A stretch of 58,046 bases of DNA. Origin: a virus. The notes beneath the pieces were generated by a model that saw nothing but the letters and a program-made list of their open reading frames with translations, searched no databases and was not told the origin of the DNA. This document shows positions 36,906-40,729 of the stretch, piece by piece (within the stretch, counting starts at the first letter, position 1; every line of letters begins with the position of its first letter). The stretch spans positions 1 through 58,046 of the IMG/VR virus record IMGVR_UViG_3300032294_002030, one strand, 5' to 3'. A program made the translations under genes and the position numbers.

Positions 36906-37436
36906 ATGAAAAACGTCTTCGTAATTTCTGACACGCATTTTGGGCATCATAACATGTACAACTTCGTAGAAGCAGATGGTACGAGGACTCGTCATGAATT
37001 TGCTAATGCAGAAGAAGCAGACCAAGCAATGATTGATCGGTGGAATAGTGTAGTAAAGACTACAGATAAAGTCTATCATCTTGGTGATGTTTTTATCAAC
37101 AAAAAGGCAAGCTCTATTCTTTATGCCCTAAACGGTGATAAGGTATTGATCAAGGGCAACCACGATATTTTTGAGCTTAAGGTATACACCCCATTCTTTC
37201 GAGACATTCGGGCATATCATGTATTAGATAAGATGATTTTGAGTCATGTGCCAATCCACAAGGATTGCATTGAGCGGTTCAAAGGAAACGTGCATGGCCA
37301 TCTTCATCGTAAATTAATTCTTGACCACTGGAAGAAACCAGATCCATTTTACAAGTCCGCGTGTGTTGAACACAACGATTACACTCCAGTGGAACTGTCT
37401 GTATTTATCGACCACTTTTCCAAACTAAGGACTTGA
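36906..37436 (+). CDS. Calcineurin-like metallophosphoesterase
   Basis: 176 residues with the full metal-binding set: ISDTHFGH (Asp9, His11), HLGDVF, KGNHD, SHVPIH and HGHLH. Members hydrolyse phosphomonoesters, diesters or nucleotides. The short, single-domain form with FGHxNMYNF is common in phages and related to YfcE/MJ0936-like enzymes. Its stop codon overlaps the -35 of the next promoter. AAGAGG lies before the start. Confidence 0.9.
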   Translation: MKNVFVISDTHFGHHNMYNFVEADGTRTRHEFANAEEADQAMIDRWNSVVKTTDKVYHLGDVFINKKASSILYALNGDKVLIKGNHDIFELKVYTPFFRDIRAYHVLDKMILSHVPIHKDCIERFKGNVHGHLHRKLILDHWKKPDPFYKSACVEHNDYTPVELSVFIDHFSKLRT

Positions 37437-37461
37437 CATTTTAACCTGTTAGTGTTATAAT
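37433..37461 (+). promoter_or_regulatory. Consensus sigma70 promoter (TTGACA-N17-TATAAT)
   Basis: Both hexamers are exact consensus: TTGACA at 37433-37438 and TATAAT at 37456-37461, 17 bp apart. Expected transcription start is near 37468, about 70 bases before the start of the NMN adenylyltransferase gene. One of the strongest host-type promoters in the window. Confidence 0.85.
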
Positions 37462-37515
37462 TATGGTAGGTAATGAAAGATGCCTTTGGCAAGTAGTTAC
37501 CTACCAAACACTAAC
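37448..37515 (+). promoter_or_regulatory. Nested inverted repeats around the NAD-gene promoter and leader
   Basis: Three arm pairs are nested: GTTAGTGTT (37448-37456) with AACACTAAC (37507-37515), TGGTAGGTAA (37464-37473) with TTACCTACCA (37497-37506), and TGCC (37481-37484) with GGCA (37488-37491) around TTT. The outer left arm lies in the promoter spacer and touches the -10, so as DNA this could be a repressor site. The transcript from about 37468 could still fold AGGTAA with TTACCT and the inner TGCC/GGCA stem, giving a 5' leader hairpin with unpaired TGAAAGA and AGTAG sides. Confidence 0.65.
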
Positions 37516-37538
37516 CTCTGATACAGATGGAGACTCAT

Positions 37539-38477
37539 ATGGTTACACCTCGTAGTGCGCCTATGCGACCACGTGCCGAAAAACCGGCAGACGTTGGCAT
37601 AATCGTAGGCAGATTTCAAGTGCATGAGTTGCACGAAGCACACCGTGATCTTATTGACACGGTTGTCGCAAATCACGATAGAGTGATTATTTTTATCGGT
37701 CTTTCGCCTCTGCGAAACACCGCACACAATCCACTCGACTTCAATTCACGAAAGAAAATGATTCAGGATACTTACCCTGACATTGAAGTCTACTACATCG
37801 ACGATAACCCAAGCGATGTGATATGGTCAAAAGTATTAGACCGCGAGATTTCCAAGTGGATTACTCCCAACCAAACTGCAATAATCTACGGTAGTAGGGA
37901 TAGTTTTATTCAATACTACAGTGGCTCATTTCCGGTACAAGAACTTGAAGCTACTAAGTTTATCTCAGGCACGGAACTCCGTAGACGAATCGCAAACACC
38001 TACAAAACGTCTGATGCATTTCGTGCTGGTGTTATTTCAGCGAGCATGAATCGATACCCTACTTGCTATACCACGGTAGACGTTGCGATTATTGACCCCG
38101 CAAAAAATAGAATTTTGATGGGCAGAAAAGAAAACGAACCACATCTTCGGTTCATCGGCGGGTTTGCATCACCGACTAGCACTTCGTTTGAAGAAGACGC
38201 TCGCCGCGAGGTCATGGAAGAAACCGGCGTTGAGGTGGATGGGTTGGAGTATATTGGCAGTACGTTTATCAACGACTGGCGCTACAGAAACGAAATCGAC
38301 AAAATCAAGACAATTTTTTATCTTGGTACCTACGTACACGGGCGCCCGCAAGCGAACGATGATATCCAGTCAGTTGAATGGGTAGATATGCTGGATCTCA
38401 AGGCTGGTGTTGTGGAGGTTATGCCTGAACACCACGTTCTTGTAAATATGTTAATCAATTATTACTACGCACAATAA
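37539..38477 (+). CDS. nadM: Bifunctional NMN adenylyltransferase / Nudix hydrolase
   Basis: 312 residues from ATG 37539, chosen because GGAG lies at 37529-37532; ATG 37527 has no ribosome binding site. The N-terminal nucleotidyltransferase shows GRFQVHELHEAH near 24-35 and ISGTELRRRI near 139, converting NMN and ATP to NAD+. The C-terminal Nudix domain has RFIGGFASPT..FEEDARREVMEETGVEV; the REVMEE core is intact but the usual Glu before it aligns with Thr. Relatives with this fusion also cleave ADP-ribose to AMP and ribose 5-phosphate. With NAMPT at 39267 it forms a nicotinamide to NAD+ salvage route. Confidence 0.92.
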   Translation: MVTPRSAPMRPRAEKPADVGIIVGRFQVHELHEAHRDLIDTVVANHDRVIIFIGLSPLRNTAHNPLDFNSRKKMIQDTYPDIEVYYIDDNPSDVIWSKVLDREISKWITPNQTAIIYGSRDSFIQYYSGSFPVQELEATKFISGTELRRRIANTYKTSDAFRAGVISASMNRYPTCYTTVDVAIIDPAKNRILMGRKENEPHLRFIGGFASPTSTSFEEDARREVMEETGVEVDGLEYIGSTFINDWRYRNEIDKIKTIFYLGTYVHGRPQANDDIQSVEWVDMLDLKAGVVEVMPEHHVLVNMLINYYYAQ

Positions 38478-38533: not shown

Positions 38534-39361
38534 ATGACTAGTGTGGTTGGATTACAAATAGGAGATTTGGTTGTATTACAAGAAGGACACAAGATATCAA
38601 AAGAAGGGTGGAAAATATCTACCGTTGAAGTCAAATGTGAATGTGGTAACGTTAGATGGATTAGAAAGACCGAGTTAACAAATGGAAGATACTTAAATTG
38701 TAAACAAGGGGCACATGGCAAAAATGTTGTAGATTTAAGGAATAAGTCATTTGGAGAATGGAAAGTTATTTCATATGATGGTGATGGTAAATGGAAGTGT
38801 CAGTGTTCTTGTGGAACATTAAAATCTCTGAAGTCTGCGGAATTAACGAATAGTAAAAGTAAGTCTTGTGGATGTAAGCGATTTGAGTATATGGCAAAGA
38901 CAAACACTTTACCAAACAATAAAAGTCAAAAAAATAAAATATTAAATACGTACAAAAAACACGCACAAAGTAGAAATTTAGAGTTTAAACTAACCGCCAA
39001 AGAATTTGAACAATTGATTATTGAAGATTGTTATTATTGCGGCATACAACCATCCAACATAAAAAATCCCGATTCTGTCAATAAATACGGGAACATCTCT
39101 CCGTTTAGATATAATGGTATAGATAGAGTAGACAGTTCCGTTGGATACACAATAGAAAATTGTGTTTCGTGTTGCAAACTCTGTAATCGTTCAAAGGGCG
39201 AACTGCCATTGAATGAGTGGAAAGAGTGGATAGGCAGAATCTTCAAACATTTAGAGGAGATACAAGATGAAACCCAACTTAATTTTAATGACCGACAGTT
39301 ACAAGCAAAGCCATCACAGTCAATACCCACCCAACACAACGCACATTTACAGCTATCTTGA
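38534..39361 (+). CDS. HNH homing endonuclease with zinc-ribbon-like N-terminus
   Basis: 275 residues. Two Cys repeats (CECGNVRW..LNCKQ and CQCSCGTLKSL..SCGCKR) form likely DNA-binding zinc modules, each followed by an ELTN motif. The C-terminal nuclease shows CYYCG, NGIDRVDSSVGYTIENCV and CKLCNRSKGELPLNEW, the HNH pattern of phage free-standing homing enzymes. It lies between the two NAD salvage genes and its last 31 codons run out of frame over the start of the NAMPT gene, as expected of an invading gene. Codon use is more AT-rich than the flanking genes by eye. Confidence 0.88.
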   Translation: MTSVVGLQIGDLVVLQEGHKISKEGWKISTVEVKCECGNVRWIRKTELTNGRYLNCKQGAHGKNVVDLRNKSFGEWKVISYDGDGKWKCQCSCGTLKSLKSAELTNSKSKSCGCKRFEYMAKTNTLPNNKSQKNKILNTYKKHAQSRNLEFKLTAKEFEQLIIEDCYYCGIQPSNIKNPDSVNKYGNISPFRYNGIDRVDSSVGYTIENCVSCCKLCNRSKGELPLNEWKEWIGRIFKHLEEIQDETQLNFNDRQLQAKPSQSIPTQHNAHLQLS

Positions 39362-40631
39362 AAGCAGAGGTGGGCTGTTTCCAGAAACGGTTTTCTTTGG
39401 TTTGAATTATTTACTCAAGGAATATTTGAGTTGTCCTATTACAAAAGAAGATGTTGATTATGCGGAAAGTAGAGTAGCTAAACACATGGGTGAAGGAATT
39501 TTTAATAGGAAAGGATGGGAGTACATTTTAGAGAAGCATGCTGGCTATTTGCCGATCAAAATCCGCGCTGTACCGGAGGGGCTAGTAGTCCCAACAAGAA
39601 ACGTGTTACTTACTTTGGAGAACACCGATCCCGAAGCTCCTTGGGTTGTTTCTCACTTAGAAACCTTAATTTTGAAGGTATGGTATCCAATCACGGTTGC
39701 AACTCTTAGCCGTGAAATTAAAAAGGTTATTAAAAAGTATCTTGAAGAAACGGGGGACGTTTCTGGTCTAGATTTTAAGCTTCATGACTTTGGTTACCGT
39801 GGGGTTTCTTCCGAAGAAAGCGCGGCAATCGGTGGACTCGCGCATCTTGTTAACTTCAAGGGCACTGACACCATGATTGCGCTTGAAGCAGCGGAAGCCT
39901 ACTACAAAGAAGACATGGCTGGCTTTAGTATTCCAGCGGCGGAACACAGCACGATTACCGCGTGGGGAGAAGCATTTGAGTACGAGGCGTACCAGAACAT
40001 GATCCGCCAATTTGGCGACGGTGCTCTTTATGCAGTCGTATCAGACTCCTACAACATCTACAACGCCTGTGAAAACATCTGGGGCGAGGAACTCCGCGCT
40101 CAGGTAATGAACGCAAAGGGTACGCTGGTCATTCGCCCGGACTCCGGGGTTCCCCATGAAGTTGTTCGGCAAATCACAGAAATTCTTGGAAAGAAGTTTG
40201 GATATACTGTAAACGAAAAGGGTTACAAGGTGTTGAACAAAGTACGAATCATTCAGGGAGATGGTATTACCCTTGAAGAAATCAATCGTATTCTCGAAGC
40301 ACTAAAGATTCGCGGGTGGTCCGCTGATAACGTAGCCTTTGGTATGGGCGGGGCTCTTCTACAGCAGTGCAACCGCGATACGCAACGATTTGCTATCAAG
40401 GCGTCTAGTATGGTTAGAAACGGTCGCGTGGTAGATGTGTATAAGGCTCCCGTTACGGACAACGGAAAGCGGTCTAAGCGAGGGCGTCTCAAGCTGGTAT
40501 CCACGGACGGTGTGCTAGAAACTATTGCCGAGAGTGATATCGGTCACGACATTCTACAAGAAGTTTGGGTAAACGGCAAACTCAAATACGATCCTTCTCT
40601 AGATACCGTTAGACAACTAGCGTCGGTATAG
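39267..40631 (+). CDS. nadV: Nicotinamide phosphoribosyltransferase
   Basis: 454 residues, near the normal 460-490. Markers: MTDSYKQSHHSQYP, YSYLESRGG, LHDFGYRGVSS, FSIPAAEHSTITAWGE with the catalytic His at 227, VSDSYNIYNA, VIRPDSGVP, IIQGDGIT and AFGMGGALLQQ. It makes NMN from nicotinamide and PRPP, feeding the adenylyltransferase at 37539. The start codon lies 95 bases inside the HNH gene, preceded by GAGGAGATACAAG. A strong GC-rich hairpin follows its stop. Confidence 0.95.
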   Translation: MKPNLILMTDSYKQSHHSQYPPNTTHIYSYLESRGGLFPETVFFGLNYLLKEYLSCPITKEDVDYAESRVAKHMGEGIFNRKGWEYILEKHAGYLPIKIRAVPEGLVVPTRNVLLTLENTDPEAPWVVSHLETLILKVWYPITVATLSREIKKVIKKYLEETGDVSGLDFKLHDFGYRGVSSEESAAIGGLAHLVNFKGTDTMIALEAAEAYYKEDMAGFSIPAAEHSTITAWGEAFEYEAYQNMIRQFGDGALYAVVSDSYNIYNACENIWGEELRAQVMNAKGTLVIRPDSGVPHEVVRQITEILGKKFGYTVNEKGYKVLNKVRIIQGDGITLEEINRILEALKIRGWSADNVAFGMGGALLQQCNRDTQRFAIKASSMVRNGRVVDVYKAPVTDNGKRSKRGRLKLVSTDGVLETIAESDIGHDILQEVWVNGKLKYDPSLDTVRQLASV

Positions 40632-40637
40632 CTAACG

Positions 40638-40670
40638 AACGGCGGGGGTTGACTTTTAACCCCCGCCGTT
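40638..40670 (+). terminator. 13-bp GC-rich hairpin after nadV
   Basis: AACGGCGGGGGTT (40638-40650) pairs perfectly with AACCCCCGCCGTT (40658-40670) around GACTTTT, then TATATTT. The stem is very GC-rich against an AT-rich background. The following T tract is short and broken, so termination may be partial. Confidence 0.7.
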
Positions 40671-40676
40671 TATATT
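40649..40676 (+). promoter_or_regulatory. Possible promoter within the nadV terminator (TTGACT-N16-TATATT)
   Basis: TTGACT (40649-40654) is formed by the end of the left arm and the loop, and TATATT (40671-40676) follows the right arm. This would let transcription restart for the SPFH gene at 40730. Confidence 0.35.
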
Positions 40677-40729
40677 TCACATCATAGGGAATGATACCCT
40701 ATCAACTAAAACATTATTAAGGAGAAGGT

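Follow-up and report, generated by a model that had tools for sequence, protein, structure and literature searches.

A co-varying leader hairpin and GAU-repeat ribosome-binding-site hairpins ahead of phage NAD salvage genes

Analysis of a 58,046-nucleotide stretch of viral DNA (the whole of which is referred to here as the window) revealed two structured elements in the leader of nadM, a gene encoding an NMN adenylyltransferase-Nudix protein (37539-38477, plus strand). Hairpin 1, the first of these, proved to be real; it is conserved, co-varies and was found ahead of nadM only. The second belongs, as far as its sequence can tell, to GAU-repeat hairpins at the ribosome-binding site (RBS), which mark nadM and nampt in many phages. 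It is likely, judging from these sequence patterns, that the leader exerts translational control of phage NAD salvage through a trans-acting factor that recognizes the fixed loops, and RNA is probably the means by which phages with such leaders regulate NAD repair. The salvage pathway is viewed as a phage answer to bacterial defences that destroy the cofactor; NadV/Nampt is reported to accompany NadM in every phage that has the latter, countering NAD depletion (PMC9503650). Finding an RNA element linked to both NAD genes in diverse phages opens their regulation to direct testing, and the leader may point to a novel RNA that responds to NAD or to a novel translational repressor of phages.

The leader lies behind a sigma-70-type promoter with an extended -10 TG on the plus strand (37433-37461), in which TTGACA (37433-37438) is separated by 17 bases from TATAAT (37456-37461). 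This arrangement scores 12/12 against the sigma-70 consensus (TTGACA, 16-18 nt, TATAAT) and occurs in exact form nowhere else on the 58 kb phage contig, bearing out the exact-consensus promoter of the original prediction and showing it to be unique in the record. The promoter overlaps the stop codon of an upstream phosphoesterase ORF (36906-37436). From the promoter geometry, we infer a transcription start at 37468 on the plus strand, about 7 nt past the -10.

Hairpin 1 (37464-37506, plus strand) consists of a 10-bp stem, TGGTAGGTAA/TTACCTACCA (37464-37473/37497-37506), an internal loop of T-GAAAGA opposite AGTA-G, a 4-bp inner stem, TGCC/GGCA (37481-37484/37488-37491), and a TTT loop. Within the internal loop, the invariant letters are GAAAGA on the 5′ side (37475-37480) and AGTA on the 3′ side (37492-37495). 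It is flanked by an outer pair of arms, GTTAGTGTT (37448-37456, plus strand) and AACACTAAC (37507-37515, plus strand), which form 9 perfect base pairs in the window. The three nested arm pairs described previously were thus all found in place, together with the internal loops TGAAAGA and AGTAG. The 44-nt hairpin 1 fold has a predicted energy of -19.2 kcal/mol, compared to a mean of -7.9 for shuffled sequences (z -5.0), and none of 200 shuffles folded as well. Of the promoter-like sites in the window, 31 score 10/12 or more; when these were compared for downstream hairpins, the nadM promoter had by far the strongest (-19.0, z -4.1; next best, -11.0).

Used alone as a query, the NadM protein of the window retrieved no relative from viral contigs. 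A Nampt scan and an alignment scan yielded two nadM-nampt phages, L008 and L019, whose NadM proteins are 60% and 65% identical to that of the window, respectively, and both carry the same hairpin 1 element ahead of nadM. The element reads AAGTAG-C-GAAAGA-TGTC-AATT-GACA-AGTA-C-CTACTT in L008 and TAGGTAATGG-C-GAAAGA-TGTC-ACTT-GACG-AGTA-C-CCATTACCTA in L019; neither GAAAGA nor AGTA, the loop letters, differs by a single base among the three phages. Across 36 aligned columns, all 10 base pairs are kept in the three sequences, and six of the 10 are changed on both sides, compared to a mean of 1.9 in shuffled controls, only one of 500 of which reached as high a count. Sliding the pairing partners of hairpin 1 abolished most of the covariation signal. 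Furthermore, a model built from L008 and L019 only gave the window site as its best match in the 58 kb, at E 3.7e-6 compared to 0.12 for the runner-up. The original prediction had proposed that the inner arm pairs fold in a transcribed leader and that this be judged by covariation and conservation of the stems in related phages; with three sequences available, the inner stems co-vary and the loops are fixed, which supports a folded leader at the level of sequence. Given that the loop letters stay fixed while the arms vary, the pattern is that of an RNA rather than of a DNA operator, and compensatory stem changes, along with the position of all three copies ahead of nadM, are what is expected of a structured leader RNA. 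The promoter of L008 is TTGACT-N17-TATACT, and 13 nt separate its -10 from GAAAGA, as in the window; no recognizable sigma-70 promoter was found in L019.

Scans for the loop-letter pattern in viral contigs and in one genome per species for ~85,000 prokaryote species listed ~155 chance matches, among which an outer stem of at least 6 bp occurred only in the three nadM leaders; further rare members may exist beyond the matches listed. In the complete records of the window and of 19 relatives, hairpin 1 was found at the three nadM sites only, and the model search did not find it among NadM relatives at 55% identity or below. A weak model match in L007 (E 1.3) was rejected as a plain hairpin of its own. 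An exact-letter search of viral contigs returned no match, and searching phage records at the DNA level with either the leader or the nadM region gave no relevant match.

The second conserved element, which the original prediction had overlooked, lies at the RBS of nadM. In the window it comprises an anti-Shine-Dalgarno arm, a loop with two GAT repeats and a Shine-Dalgarno (SD) arm, CTCT-GATACAGAT-GGAG (37516-37532, plus strand), or CUCU-GAUACAGAU-GGAG as RNA. The corresponding elements are CUCU-GAUAUAGAU-AGAG in L008 and CCCU-CAGAUACAAGGUA-AGGG at nadM of L019, whose nampt leader carries a two-repeat form as well, UCCU-GAUACAAGAUA-AGGA. Common to the window, L008 and L019 leaders is CTC(T/A)GATA(C/T)A directly 5′ of the SD. 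The window RBS hairpin is short (3-4 bp, one of them a wobble), and a competing UCUG/CAGA pairing is favoured in silico; on the basis of its repeats and of L008 and L019, the hairpin fits the GAU-repeat group, with its exact pairing uncertain. Its placement in this broader group is what is new here.

Hairpins with two GAU repeats in the loop precede nadM and/or nampt in many phages, and their stems co-vary and usually contain the SD sequence; the rest of these genomes is almost free of them. Loops with two GAT repeats are closed by unlike stems, including CTCCT/AGGAG (L036), TCCAAA/TTTGGA (L056), GTTTCTTT/AAGGAGAC (L052), GGTCC/GGACT (L040), TTCG/CGAA (L009), CATAG/CTATG (L035) and AGAC/GTCT (L027). 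Two GAT repeats just 5′ of the start were present in 22 of 149 nad leaders and in eight of 364 others (p 3e-7), although p-values are descriptive only, since the motif was defined after inspecting these leaders. Among the eight, those of L027 (3012), L056 (3024), L054 (3932) and probably L032 (4073) are nad leaders by position that the start assignment had missed. By contrast, GATAYA alone was not enriched ahead of nad genes (11/149 versus 18/364), indicating that the two-repeat form matters. Using the upstream-most motif match per leader, we found that flanks paired better with their own partners (9.7) than with partners swapped among leaders (6.5; sd 0.6, p 5e-5), and thinning of near relatives gave the same result.

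Six phage records, 12-228 kb in size (L052, L056, L075, L076, L037 and L043), contain the exact letters GATGCNNTGATGC at 10 sites in total, all of them ahead of nadM or nampt and none elsewhere. The looser GATGCNNNGATRCA has 13 sites in nine records, 11 of which are nad leaders by position; the reversed control gave one match. In whole-record scans of seven phages, the nad sites stood among other matches, which were mostly inside coding regions. The GAU-repeat element was not seen in the nampt or nadM-nampt phages LucasX, VH7D, D481, vB_KpnM_05F, L9-6, VspSw_1, Ah1 and RBC11.

Other hairpins were observed in nad leaders. In L007 (Synechococcus phage BUCT-ZZ01), a GCGAAAGACGC hairpin occurs exactly twice in 156 kb (reversed control, one match), ahead of nadM (~2922-2945) and in the nampt leader before 4320, and each copy is followed by a hairpin with AAGGA in its loop (TTCTAC/GTAGAA and CTTGC/GCAAG). 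The nadM leaders of L034, L038 and L063 contain a fixed-loop GTTATYGATG hairpin, with stems CAATTC/GAATTG or GGTTC/GAACC, once per genome.

How might these elements act? A strong vegetative promoter would yield an mRNA from about 37468 whose folded cis-regulatory leader serves nadM and nampt. Hairpin 1 would display an internal loop that is fixed and rich in purines, GAAAGA facing AGUA, between stems free in sequence, and ~10 nt 3′ of it the nadM SD would lie inside a small hairpin whose loop has two GAU repeats. The leader would then govern the frequency of nadM translation, through a trans factor that recognizes the fixed loops and shifts the RBS between open and closed states. This factor could be a metabolite of the NAD pathway or an RNA-binding protein of phage or host origin, perhaps NadM or Nampt. 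We infer translational control and a trans factor of this nature because control of translation is the natural reading of two elements placed either within the leader or at the SD, and because the same element at nadM and nampt suggests a common trans factor. Speaking against this explanation, hairpin 1 is present in three sequences only and is missing from many other nadM phages, and the short window RBS hairpin with its competing fold and the lack of a recognizable promoter in L019 also count against it. A switch shared through pairing of the 3′ arm of hairpin 1 with the SD region was considered and rejected, as good pairing was seen in L019 only (P 0.01) and was absent in the window (P 0.6).

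We class the leader with the cis-regulatory leader RNAs, a known kind, and do not assign it to a riboswitch class. Phage translational operators, such as the MS2 coat hairpin and the T4 RegA sites, are small hairpins at the RBS with fixed loop letters. The present elements resemble them in these respects, but the genes (nadM and nampt) and the loop letters (GAU repeats, GAAAGA/AGUA) are new. In bulged-G or loop E internal loops, AGUA stands opposite GAA; in hairpin 1 the 3′ strand AGUA likewise appears to face a 5′ strand GAA, but AGA makes the 5′ strand three bases longer. No Rfam family matched the window at permissive or gathering thresholds, in line with the earlier remark that no known NAD riboswitch pattern was recognizable, and the only Rfam matches in 20 related loci were tRNA and tmRNA. 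The NAD+-I riboswitch (nadA motif) is a bulged stem-loop in NAD-gene leaders, with a second domain that contains the RBS (PMC7297122, PMC7708056). An NAD gene in the window likewise has a bulged stem-loop in its leader, but this leader lacks the ACANCCCC bulge that characterizes each of the two tandem stem-loops of this class, lacks tandem similar domains, and gave no Rfam match at E ≤ 10. The NAD+-II riboswitch (pnuC motif) forms a pseudoknot in the short leader of a nicotinamide-pathway gene and includes the RBS in its structure (PMC7749635). The window leader is similarly a short RNA ahead of a nicotinamide-pathway gene with the RBS within the structure, but it combines a simple hairpin and an RBS hairpin ahead of nadM instead of the pnuC pseudoknot; no pseudoknot was evident on a non-exhaustive look, nor was there an Rfam match to this class, which may be absent from the Rfam copy used. 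We found no description of phage NAD-gene leaders or their regulation in the open-access literature.

Control by a trans factor could take either of two specific forms. It is plausible that a phage-encoded translational repressor, perhaps NadM or Nampt itself acting autogenously in the manner of the phage MS2 coat or T4 RegA proteins, binds the loops and blocks the ribosome. Small RBS hairpins whose loops are fixed and stems free, repeated at nadM and nampt of the same phage, fit such an operator, and loops that differ between phage groups are expected if the regulator co-evolves; however, neither NadM nor Nampt showed an RNA-binding domain, and the analysis did not turn up a gene for a candidate repressor. 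More tentatively, the leader may be a metabolite riboswitch in which hairpin 1 is the aptamer and the RBS hairpin the expression platform, with NAD+, NMN, ADP-ribose or a related compound as candidate ligands. This form is favoured by internal-loop letters fixed between co-varying stems, the strict linkage of hairpin 1 to an NAD gene, the RBS hairpins shared by both NAD genes, and the likeness to domain 1 of NAD+-I, also a bulged stem-loop (PMC7297122), but hairpin 1 is small, no switching pair shared between it and the RBS hairpin was found, and Rfam offers no match. The small size, the presence at two genes and the lineage-specific loops make us lean slightly to a protein, and an aptamer is compatible with internal-loop letters that are fixed next to an NAD gene. 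We regard as rather unlikely the further idea that nadM-nampt phages monitor the state of NAD in the cell they infect by a riboswitch class or classes of their own, made up of hairpin 1 and the GAU-repeat RBS hairpins; if true, NAD repair would be switched on when a defence system drains NAD.

Two other readings were considered. That hairpin 1 is a generic 5′-end hairpin guarding the mRNA from decay is improbable: it does begin near the predicted 5′ end, and plain 5′ hairpins were also noted by inspection in the L022, L036 and L046 leaders, but stability does not call for 10 invariant internal-loop letters, and none of the remaining strong promoter-like sites in the window is followed by a hairpin of this kind. 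Still more doubtful, to the point of being very improbable, is a DNA operator, as the original prediction had suggested for the outer pair, at which a transcription regulator would bind the nested palindrome. The outer 5′ arm occupies the promoter spacer and the first -10 base, and would consequently be absent from the transcript of this promoter; the perfect 9-bp outer arms, the spacer letters TTTARCCTGTTAG common to the window and L019, and inverted repeats flanking the -10 upstream of nadM in L021 and L023 (AATCTAGG/CCTAGATT and GAATCT/AGATTC, read by eye) speak for an operator. Among the relatives, however, it is the centre that is fixed and the arms that differ, the reverse of the kept arm sequence expected of an operator; L008 lacks the outer arms altogether, and L019 has a different extension of 5-6 pairs. 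The suggestion of an operator at the outer pair is not supported.

With regard to the gene unit itself, the NadM-type protein has NMN adenylyltransferase and Nudix domains, the former matching at 20.4 bits against a Pfam cut-off of 21. The longest ORF opens at 37527; the ATG at 37539, behind GGAG, is more probably the start. An HNH/endonuclease VII-like ORF (38534-39361, plus strand) lies between nadM and nampt (nadV; 39267-40631, plus strand), which encodes nicotinamide phosphoribosyltransferase, and overlaps the nampt start by 95 bp. In L009 (118-2474), nampt is split by an HNH ORF 39% identical to that of the window; the letters flanking the interruption are group I intron-like, with no Rfam intron match. 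The nampt start region of the window (39250-39275) contains GAGGAGATACAAGATG, which is similar to the loop GATACAAGATA seen ahead of L019 nampt but lies 3′ of the SD. An inverted repeat of 13 perfect base pairs that ends in a T-rich run, AACGGCGGGGGTT/AACCCCCGCCGTT (40638-40670, plus strand), is the probable terminator of the nadM-nampt unit. Within 40638-40714, the terminator loop contains TTGACTTTTAA, the -35 of a promoter-like site, and a second hairpin, ATAGGG/CCCTAT, stands past the nampt terminator ahead of an SPFH/Band 7 gene.
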